Origin: JAHJDO01 sp030671985 [NCBI: bacterium]
GTDB taxonomy: Bacteria > JAHJDO01
Assembly (NCBI GenBank): GCA_030671985.1
Contig: DAOVHI010000080.1
Coordinates: forward strand, 1-6,636
Direction of reading: 5' to 3'
Length of the DNA: 6,636 nucleotides
The notes below the pieces were generated by a model. It did not search any database, was not told the origin of the DNA, and saw only the letters and a program-made list of their open reading frames with translations. The translations under genes were made by a program, and so were the position numbers. Below are positions 1 to 6,636 of the stretch, piece by piece; within the stretch, counting starts at the first letter, position 1, and every line of letters begins with the position of its first letter.

Positions 1-3000
1 AGATACCCTTAACAATAGTTAAAATATCCTCCAGCCTTTTTAACACCATTTTAATTTCCGCGCGCACTCTTTCACGTTCCCCCGGCGCTTCTTGTTCGTA
101 GCGCGCGGATGAGATCTCCTTATAGCCGTACAACTCATGTACAAGCGAGTATCTATCCAGAATAACTATAGGGCTCTGCTCAAAAAAGCCTTCCGCGAAT
201 CCATCTTCTTTGAATAAGGCAGGCTTTTTAATGACCTCATCATAAAGTTCATAAAGGGCTTTATATTTAGGCATAAGAGGATTAATGGTCTGCATATATA
301 GGCGCAACCATATAAGTTGTAGAAGTTCGTGATTATTATTTAACTGCAATCTCGTTATATTATCAGTTAACCTCTGTCTATCTATACGCTGAAGAAGCTT
401 AAAGATAAACCGGATATCCGACTCACGCACAACCTGTTCCAAATAAGCCAGTTGTGTAATAACTGCTTCTTTGTCAGACGTTTTTTCAGTTTCACGGATT
501 GTGTCCATGATTGATATTAATTCCTCGGGCTTAATCCCTAATTCATCTAAATAAGGCTTAACCTGCGAATCAGTCAATTTCCCTTCCAGGATAAGAGAAA
601 GAATCGATTCAAAACGGCTGTGATTATCAATTATAAAATCAGCCCCCATGAAGCCTTCCTCAATAACAGGATTCTCTGTTGTTTGTAGGATTTCTTTCTT
701 TTTTAATACCTCTTCGCGGGACATATTACGCCCGGTCTCATACGCAGATCTACGCACACCGCGGGCCAAACAATAGTCTGGATGAACATCGATATAGGCA
801 GTAGCATCATATAACTCTTTAAGATTGATCTTCATGTTTTTCGGAGGAGAAAGGCTGAGTATCCAGTCAACAAAAAATATACCGTCTCCGGGGGTTATCC
901 TCTGTAATGCATCCGCCCATTCTCCCGGTTTAAGAATAATTTCTTTTCTTCCCTCAATGGTCAGGGAAACTCCTTGCGGCCGGCGCTCAAGGATATGGTC
1001 GGTATCGGCAATCGTAAGAACTACTCGGCCATGCCCATCCTTTTTAACAGAGGCCTCGGCCCTTTCTCCCAGAGAAAAACTTTTCCGTTTGTCTCCTAAA
1101 GAAAATTCTCCATCCTCTTGCCCCCAGAACTCTAACATTGGTTCAGCCTGTTGCTCGTCTAAGCCAACGCGAAGGATAAGGTCTCCATCCTTTATCATAA
1201 TCTTTGCCTTATTGAGCGCCACAAGAGTAATCCTGCCGCGGTTTGTGCTGTCAAAAAGCGGTGTATAGTAGCTACCCGCCTTTTGTTTAAACTTCTTTTC
1301 CTCAGTAAAGGATTCCCATACCTCAAATTTCTCATTAGGATATTCAGTTGATTTCCTGGTATTAAAATCTATCGGCCTTCTGTCGTTGGGAAGAATCCTG
1401 TCGTCTGCCGAACGGATCTCCGCAACTAACCCTGTATTAGCCTTGATTATTTTTACAAAAAGTTTGACAAGCGTTGACTTTCCACTGGCCCCAAGTCCGG
1501 CAAAAGCAAACACCGTAGGAATACCCTTCTCCCTGTTTTCAGCATATGCTTTAAGAAGCACGGGAAGCATCTCTTCAATGGCCTCTCGAGGAGTCATTGT
1601 CCTGCTTAACCCACGCCGCAGGCGTTCGGTCCAACAACTGTATTCTTCCATCAGGGGCCCGGCAAACTCATCAACGATCCTCCGACGCTGTTCCACAACG
1701 GCGTCAGGGCTTAAAACCTGACATTTTTGATTCTCTGTTTTTATCGCGGGCGAGCTGGAAACGACTCTGCCGGATTTTTCATTTTGCGCGATATCCGAGA
1801 GTTTAGCCGAATCCGCCCTTCCCTCATCCACCGGTGAACTGCTTTTGTCTTTGGAATCCGCCTTCTCATCTATTTTTTCTGCATATTGCTCTATCTCTTC
1901 AGCAAACTTATCTCCTCCGTCCAGCTGCTCATTGACCCAAGATAATATATAATCTCTCCTGTATTTTAAAGTTTCTTTTAAATATTCTTTTTCTCTTCTC
2001 ATCAAATGTGTGTTCTCTATTAAGTAGTCTATCGTTTCATTCTTAAATATTCTCTCCAAAATAACTGCTTGCTTTGCTATATCCGTAATGGTAAGGCCAA
2101 GGCCTTCATATATTTGACGCGTTCTAAAATGTAAATCTTTATTGCCTGCGTCATATTCTAATTCCCTTACAGGTACTCCTGGGCCAAATTCATTTTTGTC
2201 TTTTCTCTTACCTCCAGCCTTATCAATAAAAAGTAATGCCCCGCCATTATCAATTCTATAAAGCACTCCTTTTGAAGCTTTGGTATTATTATCAATCCGG
2301 CGGGGAATATCCCAGTTAGCCATAAAGACATCCATTAAAAATCCATGCTTTAATTGCTGTTTGCGCGTACCAGGATTTTCTCCTCCTTCAAGGAGTAACA
2401 TTCGGGAAGCAAATCCACAAACATTATCAACTTTCACAATCTTTGTATCTGCTACCGGTACTCCAGCAAGCCTATACATCACATTTGCCAGCTGCTCGCT
2501 CCATATATGAGAGCTGTTTCCTGCCTCAGCAAATTTAACATAATAAATCTCCGGGCCGTTCTGGGCGGCTAATGTGAATTCAGCTCCCGGCCTGGTTCCT
2601 TTCTCTCCGCCAGTTTTTAATGAAAAATCCCAAGCTTCTATTGGTAGTTTCTTTAGCGCGCCTCTATCCACTGTTAAATAGTATTCATCCTTCTCTGTCT
2701 TAGCCCTAACATCGTCGAAAGTATACTCCCTAATCTCCCGTTCATAAGTTAAATAGTCCAACAGTGTTTCTTCTCTTTCCACCCAGGGATGAGTCTTGAC
2801 TTTTTCTCTTTTGTTTAATTCTTTCATGCCCTTGAGCATGATTTCTCTCAATTTATTCTGATTATCTATTCCAGCCGTATAACTTTCAAACAATCTCTTA
2901 TAAAAAGTTTCATTTAACGCCCCGTAGATCATCACCTTATAGCCTTTTTCCAGGCCACAGTCATCCCATAGTATTTTTACCTGTTTGCTTAACAAATCGA

Positions 3001-6000
3001 TGCTCTTTTGAATTTGCCCCTGAGGGATCCCTCCTCTGGAAATCGCTTCAAAAACTTCCGCGATAATTTGTTTAGCTTGCCGTTCTTTAAGCTGCCCTTG
3101 AAGCAAATTTTGCATATGCATTGACAACAGCGCGTCTTTTAGTCTAAAAATCCTTTTGCCCATATCTCGCGTCAACCGCAGCCCAAAAGCAAAAGGTTCA
3201 GTACTATCTGCAAACCTGTTTTCATTCTCATCCATGGCGAATCCCACATCATACTCTATAATCGCCTCTGCTCCATGCGCAGCTTTCCTCGAATTCCCTC
3301 TGGCACCTCTTCCTTCTCCTCCACCGCCACGTGCATACTTATAGGCAACACTCATTAAGGCCGTCATACTTTCCGCGCGGTCAGAATCATGTTCTCTTGT
3401 TCCGCTATATCCGCTTAACAAAACATCGTATACGAACGGAATAATTTTCTTTATACCGTCATGTTCATAAAATCTATAGCCGCACTTTAATATCATCTTT
3501 TCTAATTCCACCTCATTTACAGAAAATATCTTAGATAATACTTCTTGCATATTCTCTTGGCTATAGCTCCAAATTACCCGCCATTCATAATACATTATGA
3601 ACTTCTTAGCTATACGTAAAAGGTCTGTTGTTTGCTCCATAATACTTCTTAGGTTATTAAATAATACTGCTCTTACTATATCCGCTTTCGCGACAGTATT
3701 ATTTGCCGCCATCCTTTGTAAAGTTGAATATTGTTCTTCTATCAATAAACATCTGACTTTAGTAAAGGCCTGACTGTTAAGATACGGCATAAAAAGTTTT
3801 GTATTAATCAGCCGATTATCTCGCTGCATACCATTGACGGTATGCCAATCATCCAACAGGAATAAGCGCACAATACTGGCAAAAGAAAAGACCTCGCAAA
3901 TTTTCCTCAGTACTTTTTTATCTACTTTCTTTAATATAATCCATACAAAATAGAATGATCCTGGCGAAAATTCATCCAAAGCCTCTAATAATTCTCTCTC
4001 CTTCTCCAGATAAGACTCGTCAGGCCTATAATGACGCAATTCTTCTAAAATATCTTCAACCAACGATCGTTTATAGAGAATACCCCATATCTCCTCGCCA
4101 CCGGCTCCTTTACTGCTATGTTCATCTGCCAATGCGATAAATTCCTTTGCCGATTCTGTGGCATTTGACCTCAACGATAGTGGATAGAGAATATCCAGCG
4201 CCTCATCGATACGAACCCCCCCCCAATGAAGGGTAACTGCCAATAGCCTAAGATTCACTGCCGCTTCCGTGGCGTCTGCCCTCGACGACAGGTTAAAGAG
4301 AATCTTTCCGATCCACTCGCCGATAGCTCCTCTCATGCCAAGTTGAGTTGCTAATATACTAAATTCCTCTGCCGCTTCTGCGGCGTCTTCCCTCGACGAT
4401 AAATTATTAATAATCTTGCCGATCCACTCACCACTGACTTCCCACCTTACAAACTTGGTTGTCAATGCTTCAAAACTCTTTACCACTTCTGTTGCGTCTG
4501 CCCTCAACGATAGTTTATAGAAAATCTCCTCTATCTCCTCGCCACTGACTCCTTCCCTGTCCAATTGAGCCGCGAATGATAAAAGACCGGGTGTCTCTAA
4601 GATACGCCTTGCGACACCTGTCGCATCTGTCCTCAACGATAGTGGCAAGAGAATATGCGCTATCCCCTTGCCACTAACCTTCCTCCCGCCAAGTTCGGAT
4701 GTCAATGCTCTGAAATTCTCTGCCGCCTCTGCGGCGTCTGCTCTCAACGATAGGTTATAAAGAATATCCCATACCCAGATTAGCCATTTGAAAATGATTT
4801 TCTTCTTACTAAGTTCAATTATCAAGACTCTAAAATTCTCTGCTGCTTTTGCGGCGTCTACCCTCAACGATAAGTTATGAAGAATATCCATTACTCTCTT
4901 GCCAGTGGTTAACCATCCAAATCTATCTCCAAATTCAGCTGCCATTGCGCTAAAATTCTTCGCTGCTGTCTCTGGCCGCGCCGCATAAGTTCTTAAGTTG
5001 TTAATAATAGACTTTCCTTCTTCCTCACAGTCGAAATGGCTAAAGATAGCTTTTAACTGAATAAAAACATCTCTCCTGGCTTGTTCTTTCTCACCTATTT
5101 TTCTTAAATAATCTTTAACCTGCTCCCGCTGCTGCTCTGAGATCTCATCCTGACCCTTAACCGATTCCAATATTTCTCTAAACCCATAAATATCTATCTC
5201 CTCATCCTCCAGAGCGGCTATCACCTCTGCCTGCGCGTTAGGATCAAAAATTAAGAACTCTTCTATCTCCTTTGACACAATTTCCAAGTCACGGAATTCA
5301 TTACCGAGGATATAGATTAATTCATACTCCAGTTCCATAATCAAGAGCCATTTACAGCGGAATAATTCAACGTCAAGAAGGATTCTATTATAGGCAGGGT
5401 CTGCTCTGGCAAGGCGGTTAAGGCCGGATACTATCTCTATAGCCGGTATTGGAATGCCGCGGGCGCGATACGCCTCTAAGAATTCGTCGGTAAACACAAA
5501 ACCAAGCGCTTCATTAAGCATACGCGCCTTTTCTTTACTTAAATCGACATCCACGAAACTGTCCACCGTCCCACGCTCTGTCAACTTCAGCCTGGCAATA
5601 GGTCTATAATCATATGCCGAACCTTTCTTGCGGATTACGCTATTACGCGAAGGAATATTTACAATATTTCCGTCATTTTTTGTGACAGGCGAGCTGGAGG
5701 TCGATCCACTGGATTGTTTACCATTCTTACCTTTTTTATTTACCATCTCCAATTCCCCGATAAGATTCACTTGAACTTCTTCTGCATAAAGCTTAAATAA
5801 ATCTTCGGCTGTAAACCATTTTTTAGAAGAACCATCCATAAAGCCCTCCCCAATATCGTACATGTCTTTTCCCCAAATACGATTATTAGGATTCAAAAAT
5901 TTTGAAATAGGCTCTGTTTTTATTTCTATTTCTTCTGCTAAGTCAGGAAAACGTTTTTTAAGAGATTTTACCTGGGAACACTTGGCTACTAATATTAAAT

Positions 6001-6636
6001 CCGCCTTTTTTACATCCGCTTCCGAAACTTTTTTCTGCACATGTTTCTCATAAAATCTCCTAACCGACACCTGCTGCTCCTCACCGCAGGACTCAACAAT
6101 CCGATCAACCTCCTTCCAATATTCGATATAACCGAATCCCTTTTCTGAGGTCCCCGCTGAACATATATTTATGCCCAATTTACTTAATAAGTTTCTAAAG
6201 AAAAATTCAAATAGCGCGCTGCGGAACATATTAAGAGTACATACAACAAGAACCTTTTTCACCGGTCCAATCCCCTTACTCTTGAGAACACCGGTCTCCG
6301 GCGTTTTTACCGGCGATGAGCTTGGTTGTAACTCATCTTTTCCGCTTTTTTCTTCCATCCTCATCATCTTATTATTATTGTCCTGATTACTTCTCGAGAA
6401 TATCTCTATAGGCATTCCCTTGTAATGACTCCCCAAAGCCTCGGCAATATCCTTTACATGATCCATGCCTATAAAAATATAAGCTGAAAGGCCGCGCTCT
6501 TTAGCTTTACGAACAATATCTTTAATATTCAATACAATAAACTGATTACGCCATTCAAAATTAACTTTTAGTAAAGTATCCACACCGCGTTTTGTGCGCG
6601 GTTTCCTCAATAAATACTTAATATTACGGACATCCC
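1..6636 (-). CDS. Giant multidomain protein, internal fragment open at both ends (PTP-like, helical repeats, HipA-like kinase, uridine-kinase-like)
   Basis: One frame on the minus strand is open across the whole window: complete codons run from 6632-6634 down to 2-4, giving 2,211 residues with no stop. Neither the true start nor the stop is present, so the full protein is larger. Domains in order are a TraB/ChaN-like tail, a low-molecular-weight tyrosine phosphatase fold, an array of helical repeats of about 37 residues, a HipA/PI4K-like kinase and a uridine-kinase-like P-loop domain. SSSPV or SSSPA linkers bound several of them. I saw no signal peptide and no convincing membrane segment, but the N terminus is missing, so location is unknown. 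The recognisable motifs fall in one frame along the whole length, which argues against a chance open frame and against frameshifts. Overall function is unknown; the domain mix suggests phosphate-transfer signalling. Giant proteins with SSPV-type linkers are remembered from Omnitrophota, which is inference only. Confidence 0.95.
2..601 (-). other. Unrecognised helical segment after the P-loop domain, running off the window
   Basis: Residues 2012-2211 are almost entirely amphipathic helix, rich in Leu, Glu, Ile and Arg, for example ESILSLILEGKLTDSQVKPY and HELLQLIWLRLYMQTI, followed by a strand-like PIVILDRYSLVHELYGY and a charged helix (ERERVRAEIKMVLKRLEDIL). No family or catalytic motif was recognised. 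The frame is still open at the window edge, so what this segment belongs to lies downstream in the gene. Confidence 0.45.
602..1525 (-). other. Uridine kinase/phosphoribulokinase-like P-loop domain with a beta-rich insertion
   Basis: Residues about 1704-2011. A strand (VFAFAGLG) runs into the Walker A motif GLGASGKST (residues 1713-1721). The segment YPNEKFEVWESF (W1773) and the later YYTPLFDSTNRGR (D1795, R1799, R1801) correspond to the 'HP.aFDw..' and 'P.YD....R' elements of uridine kinases. FFVDWILSL (D1923) matches the family strand 'ivlvEGila', with Asp in place of Glu. ATAYIDVHPDYCLARGVRRSAYETGR (1944-1969, core motif D-x-R-x(2,3)-RR...GR) matches the lid region, and GADFIID ends the fold. 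About 110 beta-rich residues (1802-1912) are inserted before the D1923 strand, where a normal uridine kinase of about 210 residues has none. Expected chemistry is phosphoryl transfer from ATP or GTP to a small molecule; the acceptor is unknown. A zeta-toxin-like role is an alternative reading. Confidence 0.7.
899..1231 (-). other. Beta-rich insertion within the P-loop domain
   Basis: Residues 1802-1912 contain short alternating hydrophobic strands with Gly/Asp turns, for example KIMIKDGDLILRVG, EFSLGDKRKSFSLGERAEASVKK, GRVVLTIAD and VSLTIEGRKEIILKPGE. The pattern suggests a small beta-sandwich. An FHA-like fold is possible, but the diagnostic GR...S..H motif is not clear. It sits between the substrate-binding segment and the following core strand of the kinase fold, where it could cap the active site or bind a partner. 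Confidence 0.45.
1526..1744 (-). other. Helical lead-in to the P-loop domain
   Basis: Residues 1631-1703 follow linker 4. After a polar stretch there are two or three amphipathic helices (SPDAVVEQRRRIVDEFAG, EEYSCWTERLRRGLSRTM, TPREAIEEMLPVLLKAYAEN). No known family was recognised. The stretch probably packs against the P-loop domain as its N-terminal extension. Confidence 0.4.
1745..1759 (-). other. SSSPA interdomain linker 4
   Basis: Residues 1626-1630 read SSSPA, with the Val of the other copies replaced by Ala. It precedes a helical lead-in (about residues 1640-1700) and the P-loop domain. The underlying plus-strand 11-mer at 1749-1759 is identical to that in linker 2. Confidence 0.65.
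1829..1843 (-). other. SSSPV interdomain linker 3
   Basis: Residues 1598-1602 read SSSPV, after a Glu/Lys/Asp-rich helix (about residues 1573-1597) that ends the kinase section. Only 23 residues separate it from linker 4, too few for a folded domain, so linkers 3 and 4 form a double spacer between the two kinase-like domains. Confidence 0.7.
1955..2641 (-). other. HipA/PI4-kinase-like protein kinase-fold domain
   Basis: Residues about 1332-1560. A strand EIYYVKF carries the candidate ATP-binding lysine K1367. It is followed by GNSSHIWSEQLANVMYRLAG, whose E1380 is placed to pair with the lysine, then GVPVADTKIVKV and the hinge-like GFASRMLL. The catalytic loop appears as DVFMANWD-x5-DNN (D1435, N1440, D1442, D1448, N1449), and the metal-binding motif as RIDNGGALLF with D1462. 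A later FGPGVPVREL segment also fits. The order K...E...D-x4-N-W-D...IDxGGA is that of HipA-like and PI3/4-kinase-like bacterial proteins, distinct from Hanks-type kinases (no HRD or DFG). Expected activity is ATP-dependent phosphorylation of a protein or lipid; the substrate is unknown. All expected key residues seem present, so it is probably active. Confidence 0.7.
2642..4057 (-). other. Unrecognised helical region between the repeat array and the kinase domain
   Basis: Residues 860-1331. The sequence is mostly amphipathic helix. It opens with a charged helix (about residues 872-886, rich in Glu, Lys and Leu) and aromatic-rich segments (GSFYFVWIILKK, FIMYYEWRVIWSYSQEN) that may be buried core helices; neither is long or apolar enough to call a membrane span. 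A Gly/Arg-rich stretch at residues 1102-1116 splits it into two halves. The second half includes a Gln/Leu-rich helix (MHMQNLLQGQLKERQAKQII), likely a coiled coil. No catalytic motif was recognised. It may be the N-terminal extension of the kinase that follows, or an independent scaffold. Confidence 0.45.
3287..3331 (-). other. Glycine/arginine-rich flexible segment
   Basis: Residues 1102-1116 (RGGGGEGRGARGNSR) hold seven glycines and four arginines in 15 residues. This is unlike the helical sequence on both sides and is probably a disordered hinge or an RGG-like nucleic-acid-binding patch. Composition is the only evidence. Confidence 0.55.
4058..4981 (-). repeat. Tandem array of eight ~37-residue (111-bp) alpha-helical repeats
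   Basis: Residues 552-859. Unit boundaries by coordinate are 4862-4981, 4742-4861, 4631-4741, 4502-4630, 4391-4501, 4280-4390, 4169-4279 and 4058-4168. Five units are exactly 111 bp; the others are 120, 120 and 129 bp, always in frame. The consensus is about ADATEAAxxFxxLxxxL, then a variable turn, then GEWIxxILxNLSLR. This fits two helices per unit, as in solenoids of the HEAT, PPR or OPR length class. Similarity is visible in DNA too: the plus-strand 12-mer CCTCAACGATAG recurs with 0-3 changes at 4169, 4280, 4391, 4502, 4631, 4742 and 4862. That points to fairly recent tandem duplication or homogenisation. Such arrays usually bind protein or nucleic acid; the ligand here is unknown. The family name is not certain, though the repeat itself is clear. 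Confidence 0.88.
4216..4224. repeat. C9 homopolymer tract inside the coding sequence
   Basis: Nine consecutive C on the plus strand, read as G9 in the gene, encode part of His-Trp-Gly-Gly-Val in repeat unit 6. The frame is kept on both sides. A run this long is a known substrate for slipped-strand indels, and a change of one or two bases would cut the protein here. It is also a common site of sequencing or assembly error. Confidence 0.9.
4982..5683 (-). other. Unrecognised helical region ahead of the repeat array
   Basis: Residues 318-551. After a short basic start (IPSRNSVIRKKGSAYDYRP) the chain becomes rich in Leu, Glu, Ile and Lys with heptad-like spacing. It includes a segment of alternating acidic and hydrophobic residues (IMELEYELIYILGNEFRDLE) and a strongly charged helix around VKGQDEISEQQREQVKDYLR. 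The last 20 residues (to GKSIINNLRTYA) resemble the second half of the helical repeat that follows, so a decayed repeat may lie here. I do not recognise a family. It probably forms part of the same solenoid-like scaffold as the repeats. Confidence 0.5.
5684..5698 (-). other. SSSPV interdomain linker 2
   Basis: Residues 313-317 read SSSPV within a polar Lys/Asn/Gly/Ser stretch (about residues 299-325). It closes the phosphatase-like domain and opens the long helical section. On the plus strand the 11-mer GGCGAGCTGGA at 5688-5698 is identical to 1749-1759 in linker 4, so the linkers match in DNA as well as in protein. Confidence 0.7.
5741..6256 (-). other. Low-molecular-weight protein-tyrosine-phosphatase-like domain
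   Basis: Residues about 126-298. A hydrophobic strand (KKVLVV) runs into the P-loop CTLNMFRS, which fits the family signature C-x5-R-S with nucleophile C132, conserved N135 and phosphate-binding R138. Next come a helix, then GINICSAGTS, matching the family's second strand and SAG(T/S) motif. An H...S/D segment follows (HVQKKVSEADVKKADLILVA), matching the usual 'D..aDlil.m' strand. The catalytic acid, normally Asp in a DP motif near the end, is not obvious: D257 and D260 in GKDMYDIGEG are candidates, but no proline follows either. Gly at C+2 is replaced by Leu and the Pro after RS by Ala, so activity may be altered. The family normally acts on phosphotyrosine, or on arsenate in the related ArsC proteins. 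The domain is bracketed by two SSSPV linkers. Confidence 0.8.
6308..6322 (-). other. SSSPV interdomain linker 1
   Basis: Residues 105-109 read SSSPV, preceded by a charged stretch rich in Glu, Lys and Asp and followed by KTPETG. The linker separates the TraB/ChaN-like tail from the tyrosine-phosphatase-like domain. The same pentapeptide, or its SSSPA variant, occurs at three other places in the chain, each in low-complexity polar sequence at or near a domain boundary. Confidence 0.7.
6390..6634 (-). other. Partial TraB/ChaN-like domain (C-terminal part)
   Basis: Residues 1-82 of the visible chain, entering from the missing upstream part. The sequence has an Arg-Asn pair (R29, N30) followed by a helix, then a beta-strand-like YIFIGMDHVKDIAEAL segment with a G-x-x-H motif (H59). 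An arginine, an amphipathic helix and then hydrophobic-GxxH-hydrophobic-x-L is the layout of the C-terminal part of TraB/PrgY and ChaN-like alpha/beta domains, where the histidine lies near the active or metal site. Only the end of the domain is present, so the catalytic Glu/His motifs expected upstream cannot be checked. It could equally be another alpha/beta domain ending in a similar strand. A charged, Asn-rich tail (about residues 83-104) leads to the first SSSPV linker. Confidence 0.35.

Follow-up and report, generated by a model that had tools for sequence, protein, structure and literature searches.

Giant bacterial genes are familiar mostly as long frames with little annotation, and their origin is an open question. 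That question is raised by the window, a stretch of 6,636 nucleotides that is the whole of contig C86 (DAOVHI010000080.1) in the draft genome G000 (1,253,468 bases in 152 contigs, with an estimated completeness of 92% and contamination of 1.4%). What it encodes, read from one strand throughout, is a stretch from the interior of a giant protein. The account that we favour, and that we consider probable though well short of certain, is that the gene encodes a giant soluble mosaic protein that grew by the addition of domain cassettes at a short DNA seam.

2..6634, minus strand: single open frame of 2,211 codons, both ends open, filling the contig

A frame that spans the window on the minus strand without reaching either end had been described in an earlier note on this DNA, and stop counts in all six frames confirm it. 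The single frame runs for 2,211 stop-free codons, whereas the remaining five contain 152, 223, 134, 106 and 71 stops, and a run of this length has a log10 P of about -70 under independent bases with the base composition of the window. Purines occupy 59–70% of first codon positions when the frame is cut into seven blocks of 300 codons and an eighth of 111, and because this codon-position pattern, used here in place of reads, is steady along the frame, no hidden frame change is visible. Shine-Dalgarno-like matches of five bases accompany 1 of 47 in-frame ATGs, and the figures for the two remaining sense phases are 5 of 76 and 0 of 18. The in-frame count is not raised, so no buried gene start stands out; start codons with ribosome sites at domain edges were the sign by which the earlier note would have recognized artificially joined genes. 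Separate genes could have been falsely joined in a draft of 152 contigs. Given the steady frame and codon-position pattern, the absence of an excess of gene-start signals and three further contigs with the same build, such an assembly artefact is highly improbable. The extension of C86 to its start and stop that had been suggested fails within its own genome: both 141-base ends match no other contig above chance, and the start and stop are therefore not reached.

The contigs that resemble C86 came from a survey in which sequence was read for 145 of the 152 contigs; 120 were asked for their first 3,000 bases (7 of them masked), 16 were seen via search pieces and the others were read whole. At least 97% of the part read is open in nine contigs (C86, C25, C55, C98, C18, C80, C49, C61 and C128). 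Three of these, C25 (1,364 codons), C55 (2,795) and C98 (1,666), are open end to end and carry short serine-proline linkers like those of C86. The ends of C55 and C98 overlap exactly over 141 bases, and joining them in frame gives 4,415 stop-free codons with no end reached. We take 141 bases to be the k-mer length, as expected at MEGAHIT graph breaks. MEGAHIT is the assembler named for the CSMAG cold-seep catalogue (PMC10491686).

The linkers, which the earlier note had missed, occur four times in C86.

6308..6322, minus strand: linker 1, SSSPV, residues 105-109 (codons AGC TCA TCG CCG GTA)
5684..5698, minus strand: linker 2, SSSPV, residues 313-317 (codons TCC AGC TCG CCT GTC)
1829..1843, minus strand: linker 3, SSSPV, residues 1598-1602 (within 120 bases that C86 and C25 have in common)
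1745..1759, minus strand: linker 4, SSSPA, residues 1626-1630 (codons TCC AGC TCG CCC GCG)

Across the 8,036 residues of the four contigs, SSPV is found 16 times (3 in C86, 3 in C25, 9 in C55 and 1 in C98), against a shuffle mean of 0.07 and a maximum of 2 over 2,000 shuffles, and the reversed VPSS is absent. Only 2 SSPV are present in 106,774 residues of 263 other frames of the same genome, taken from stop to stop and some of them surely not genes. The full SSSPV occurs 11 times in the four contigs, and SSP outnumbers PSS by 28 to 3.

The linker is conserved as DNA. Its Ser-Ser codons are of the form AGY-TCR in 16 of 25 SSP[VALIM] motifs; this form is seen in 3 of the 56 remaining Ser-Ser pairs of these contigs and in none of the 16 SSP in other frames of the genome. 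C is the last base of the preceding codon in 19 of 25 cases, where its own residue would predict 6.6 (s.d. 2.2); this holds for 14 of 16 preceding serines and for 5 of 9 other residues. Furthermore, 21 of 23 TCN codons at the second serine end in R (156 of 348 overall), the proline codon is CCG in 17 of 25 motifs (88 of 266 overall) and the third base of the residue after the motif is free. Selection for serine alone is insufficient, because it would fix neither the class of the first codon nor the last base of the preceding one. The codon pattern therefore points to common descent from a short DNA element, or to a DNA-level function of that element.

With at most one mismatch, the 13-mer CCAGYTCRCCGGT is present 14 times in the 24,118 bases of the four contigs, always in one sense phase and never antisense (codon-shuffle mean 0.04). 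It is absent from 462,237 bases of other contigs, a figure that covers both strands and includes some stretches twice. Because the motif was taken from these same linkers, its count and phase are partly by construction; its absence elsewhere is not. At two mismatches there are 19 matches in the four contigs and 8 in the others, one of the eight in C80. Among 38 whole-genome matches to the looser pattern WSNWSNTCNCCNGT, ten have AGY-TCR, all in C25, C55 and C86.

The earlier note had also claimed that unrelated enzyme domains and scaffold share one chain, and domain matches support this, as do the three sister contigs, which are built alike. In C86 the following parts can be marked.

6425..6589, minus strand: probable end of a domain that starts outside the window, residues 16-70 (match to genome G160)
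5819..6259, minus strand: low-molecular-weight tyrosine phosphatase domain, residues 126-272 (PF01451, NF007520, phrog_12429, PDB 2cwd)
4070..4873, minus strand: seven-copy helical repeat of 37-43 residues, LSLRxDAxEAAExF..., residues 588-855 (autocorrelation, listed copies)
1937..2653, minus strand: HipA/CtkA-like kinase domain, the likeliest fold, residues 1328-1566 (tblastn, alignment A3, weak family profiles)
593..1510, minus strand: P-loop domain (GLGASGKST) with a uridine-kinase-like C-terminal part, residues 1709-2014 (NF004018, TIGR00235, ABC_tran, paralogue in C25)

Residues 16-70 are similar to the last part of a 233-aa protein from the unrelated genome G160 (E 2.9e-4). The phosphatase domain matches Pfam PF01451 at residues 128-230 (E 4.1e-7; 30.7 bits, curated cut-off 23.2), phrog_12429 (E 9.2e-7), PDB 2cwd (E 4.8e-4) and, weakly, NF007520 at residues 126-272 (E 0.045). 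Its C-x5-R loop reads CTLNMFR in the 2cwd alignment, and the catalytic Asp loop lies outside the aligned parts. By a family profile above cut-off together with this loop, residues 126-272 are classed from their sequence as a member of the phosphatase family. The helical repeat gives an autocorrelation peak at an offset of 37 residues, with seven copies listed, and a single-sequence structure model of it is all helix at low confidence (pLDDT 53).

For the kinase region, tblastn with an E limit of 0.05 retrieved 15 phage records, 11 of them from Gordonia phages, and 2 plasmid records, one from Streptomyces and one from Pseudomonas (E 2e-12 to 8e-4). In alignment A3, which is made of eight of these sequences, three of them lacking part of the C-terminal end, 21 columns are invariant, among them Lys, Glu, Asp, NWD, Asn and RxDxGG; in C86 these are K1367, E1380, D1435, NWD at 1440-1442, N1450 and RxDxGG at 1460-1465. 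We presume that the invariant Lys, Glu, Asp...Asn and Arg-x-Asp have catalytic roles. Family profiles score under their curated cut-offs (HipA_2 14.5 bits against 27; CtkA E 0.34; HipA_C weak), and because of these weak matches a HipA/CtkA-like kinase is the likeliest fold. Structure prediction of the region without relatives was of no use (pLDDT 36). We also observe that large proteins of phages and plasmids repeatedly contain this kinase domain; among the profile matches listed for the members scanned, no kinase family is above cut-off.

The P-loop domain matches NF004018 (E 2.3e-5) and TIGR00235 (E 3.4e-4 over residues 1936-2014) in its uridine-kinase part and ABC_tran weakly over residues 1709-1861 (E 0.019), and it has a paralogue in C25 (E 1.0e-9). 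Since its uridine kinase equivalog score is 24 bits against a cut-off of 180, residues 1709-2014 are best described as a putative distant relative of uridine kinase only.

Other domains are found in the sister contigs. C55 has a TadA-like deaminase and a histidine-kinase ATPase; its GHKL match at residues 398-462 holds no linker and is not counted among the marked domain intervals. C98 has a receiver-like domain under the Pfam cut-off (26 against 30.2 bits), and this part also gave the one match of a defence-family scan of the four contigs (PD-T4-6, E 3.2e-5), the other three contigs having none.

None of the 30 linkers in the four contigs (SSP and ASP[VI]) falls inside the nine marked domain intervals, which cover 1,246 residues, where 4.7 would be expected (P 0.006). 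A 120-base stretch around linker 3 is common to C86 and C25 at 83% identity, and the two contigs hold paralogous linker-plus-P-loop units. The placement of linkers between domains, together with this duplicated unit, makes growth by cassettes at a seam the best account of the gene.

Linkers that bracket domains and avoid the marked intervals could also be protease sites, in which case the chain would be a polyprotein cut into separate enzymes, and some segments do resemble free-standing proteins, for example the phosphatase alone between residues 109 and 313. A protease does not, however, explain conservation at synonymous bases and in the preceding codon. Pfam recognized no protease domain in the four contigs, and the segments between linkers vary in length from 23 to 1,285 residues. 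We regard the polyprotein as unlikely.

In the mosaic account, the chain would consist of self-contained domains: a phosphatase, a HipA-like kinase, a P-loop nucleoside or small-molecule kinase and a helical-repeat scaffold, with a TadA-like deaminase, a histidine-kinase ATPase and a receiver-like domain contributed by the parts on the sister contigs, and with flexible Ser-Ser-Ser-Pro-Val linkers between them. All linkers would descend from one short DNA element, and the gene would have grown as domain cassettes were duplicated and inserted at the linker seam. The linkers may then let the tethered enzymes fold and work independently. The product could be a multi-activity effector or signalling scaffold, in the cytoplasm of its own cell or, after delivery, in that of a partner cell. 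Hydropathy exceeds 1.6 in at most two 19-residue windows per contig across the four contigs, and the protein looks soluble in the part seen. Because almost no membrane-like segment is seen, it probably acts in a cytoplasm, as far as sequence alone can tell. A linker that is conserved as DNA between domains would offer a testable mark of giant-gene growth and a search key for further cases.

Several points weigh against this account. Sequence conservation beyond about 15 bases is weak, and such an element is short for homologous recombination. The 38 codons around the linker shared by C86 and C25 divide into 19 identical, 7 synonymous and 12 residue-changing, and because of this split no constraint at the protein level has to be assumed for the shared copy. 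The motif is poorly preserved in C98, with 1 SSPV among 10 listed linkers. The 13-mer was counted in the very sequences that supplied it, and the choice of codon tests followed inspection of the codons. We ourselves chose the nine domain intervals, several of which rest on sub-cut-off, C25-paralogue or weak TPR matches. Neither C86 nor C25 has a contig end in common with C55/C98, which bears on the number of genes. Finally, no homologous giant was found elsewhere, so that cassette exchange is never seen in the act.

A stronger version of the cassette account, which we offer tentatively and think more doubtful than not, is that the 13-15-base element is a working seam, at which cassettes are copied or inserted in frame and in one orientation, building and reshuffling giant multi-enzyme proteins. 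Rickettsia palindromic elements are dispersed repeats inserted in frame into bacterial genes, and like the linker they are short DNA elements in frame within coding sequence. The linker differs from them in being about 13-15 bases long, in keeping to one strand and frame, in being seen only in the four giant frames and in lying outside the marked domains. Recombination with cassettes has also been described for polymorphic toxin systems (PMC3482391), as we propose here. By analogy, and with the same reserve, the seam could be likened to the exchange of polymorphic-toxin tips, but serial and inside one gene. In contrast to those systems, neither a toxin or secretion domain nor an immunity gene was recognized in the slices, and the cassettes would be internal and serial.

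Searches for further examples of the linker returned little. The loose pattern WSNWSNTCNCCNGT was uninformative over 385 genomes, since all 385 match, many far above the genome studied here. Among 303 loci (240 among the linker-DNA matches listed in viral contigs and 63 others), no frame of at least 300 residues has three SSP[VALIM], and none of the loci has a frame of more than 2,500 residues, most being too short or cut to show a giant. In the literature, no bacterial SSSPV linker appeared by title among the matches listed; no in-frame DNA linker dividing a bacterial giant gene was found in a search that left most subscription papers and bioRxiv uncovered; and nothing apt emerged on a bacterial polyprotein or on dispersed in-frame repeats in giant proteins.

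The earlier note had compared the gene with the giants of Omnitrophota. Its reading of the window as an internal slice of a giant multi-domain protein stands; the link to that phylum is not shown. The host belongs to a phylum represented by five genomes in the collection, all of one genus; none of its four genus mates matches the C86 protein, in searches that were not aimed at genomes known to be Omnitrophota, and membership of the host in Omnitrophota is unproven. Omnitrophota giants, which include a 39,678-aa protein of Velamenicoccus archaeovorus, are described as having transmembrane helices, as adhesin-like or as poor in annotated domains (PMC10066038). They share with C86 very long single frames, poor conservation and few annotated domains. 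They differ in the transmembrane helices or adhesion domains reported for many, though not all, of them, where C86 is a soluble-looking slice with kinase, phosphatase and nucleotide-enzyme domains and a recurrent linker. Against the 20 kb that a giant of this kind would exceed, C86 reaches 6.6 kb and the joined C55/C98 frame 13.2 kb, no ends being reached. Several PVC phyla are rich in huge proteins according to a survey (PMC11573180), and the giant genes of predatory bacteria are the subject of a preprint cited in PMC12057145.

Frames of more than 20 kb are common in Omnitrophota and are thought to serve predation or adhesion (PMC10066038), and the protein described here could likewise be a secreted or surface giant for attachment or predation. 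Almost no transmembrane-like windows are seen in the hydropathy scan, however, and Pfam scans of the four contigs found no adhesion or surface domain in the slices seen. Nor was a carbohydrate domain recognized in these slices, the ends of the gene lying outside them, and the domains that are recognized are cytoplasmic signalling or nucleotide enzymes. We judge a surface giant to be distinctly unlikely. To judge by the composition of the chain, giant frames can be built from soluble signalling enzymes and nucleotide enzymes instead of surface adhesins.

Polyvalent proteins, a class defined by disparate enzymes in one chain (PMC5512222), provide a second comparison. Several disparate catalytic domains do occur in the C86 chain, and its kinase domain is shared with phage and plasmid proteins. 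The protein might accordingly be a giant of the polyvalent type, encoded by a phage or conjugative element, as would fit the 15 phage and 2 plasmid records with kinase-domain relatives, the portal or minor-head gene that adjoins the kinase-domain protein in 3 of 7 regions opened, and the annotation of matched proteins as NUDIX protein or ADP-ribosyltransferase. Against this, phage and plasmid searches with the C86 protein matched the kinase region only. Peptide-pattern scans, a method limited to close relatives, confirmed no match in viral contigs for the C86, C55 or C98 protein or for alignment A1, and none in named genomes for the C86 protein. The four contigs are filled wholly by the frame, so that no phage or conjugation gene could be seen. 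No ART, metallopeptidase or ParB-like domain is among the Pfam, PHROGs and NCBIfam matches listed for the slices on the four open contigs (NCBIfam matches being the best 25 of 56 for C55 and the best 25 of 28 for C98). C86 also differs from polyvalent proteins in being larger when its sister contigs are counted, in its linker, which is not described in the part of that paper available, and in that no mobile context is seen. A polyvalent origin thus appears decidedly improbable to us. The C86 protein is shown to be neither an Omnitrophota giant nor a polyvalent protein.

A further question is whether the gene belongs to this genome. The LolD protein of G000 is 96-97% identical to that of three genus mates, and its nearest named record is the metagenome-assembled genome 'bacterium isolate CSMAG_2459' (97%), the next best being 46-47%. 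The C86 protein (P0001) has no match in any of four genus mates. Among 385 genomes, 11 match it: its own, nine whose match is confined to the phosphatase region, and G160, which matches residues 16-70; the ten non-self matches lie in frames of 157-786 codons. Among the searches made, the C86 protein and its linker are seen only in G000. The protein P0004, which has a histidine-kinase and a deaminase region, gave 21 matches in the four mates at E up to 1, of which 18 are to the histidine-kinase region (frames of 371-774 codons), two, both weak, to the deaminase region (frames of 368 codons) and one, again to the histidine-kinase region, lies in a much longer frame of G002.

In contig C57 of the genus mate G002 (1-3279, plus strand), this open frame of 2,648 codons matches a histidine-kinase ATPase and then runs on into what is, by eye, receiver-like sequence. 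The piece read has one SSP, in other codons. Giant frames therefore occur in this genus.

The giant gene may thus be real while C86, C25, C55 and C98 come from another organism, for example an Omnitrophota-like one, and were misbinned. Besides the four genus mates without a match, this would explain why the codon usage of C86, C55, C98 and C18 is farther from the frame pool than each of 300 mixed samples, why the four linker contigs and C80 are mutually close in codon usage (0.065-0.093), and why the tetranucleotide correlations of C86 are 0.88 and 0.85, when the 5% quantile of other contigs is 0.889. However, ordinary large genes deviate in codon usage too (AcrB-like 0.098, SecA 0.083 and three at 0.071-0.074, against 0.085 for C86), and C55 and C98 have tetranucleotide values of 0.92-0.93, in the median-to-lower range (median 0.94). 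The estimated contamination of 1.4% and the 2,648-codon frame with a histidine-kinase match in G002 also argue against misbinning, to which we still assign an appreciable, if minor, chance.

Some other features of these contigs were observed in passing. In C55, residues ~2619-2655, between two close linkers, read SLVTDDWCLVTGEARF, which by eye resembles a translated simple DNA repeat, as though the frame had absorbed non-coding sequence. C18 (1,102 codons) and C80 (1,092) are open end to end, lack SSP and any Pfam match above cut-off, and are possibly slices of other giant proteins. By eye, C49 resembles an RND transporter and C61 a carbamoyl-phosphate synthase. C128 (3-4499, plus strand) carries rpoB and rpoC in one open frame of 1,499 codons. 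A literature search found no paper on such a fusion; rpoB-rpoC fusions occur in Helicobacter and Wolbachia. In C128, Pfam places the end of Rpb2 domain 7 at 1019 and the start of Rpb1 domain 1 at 1050.

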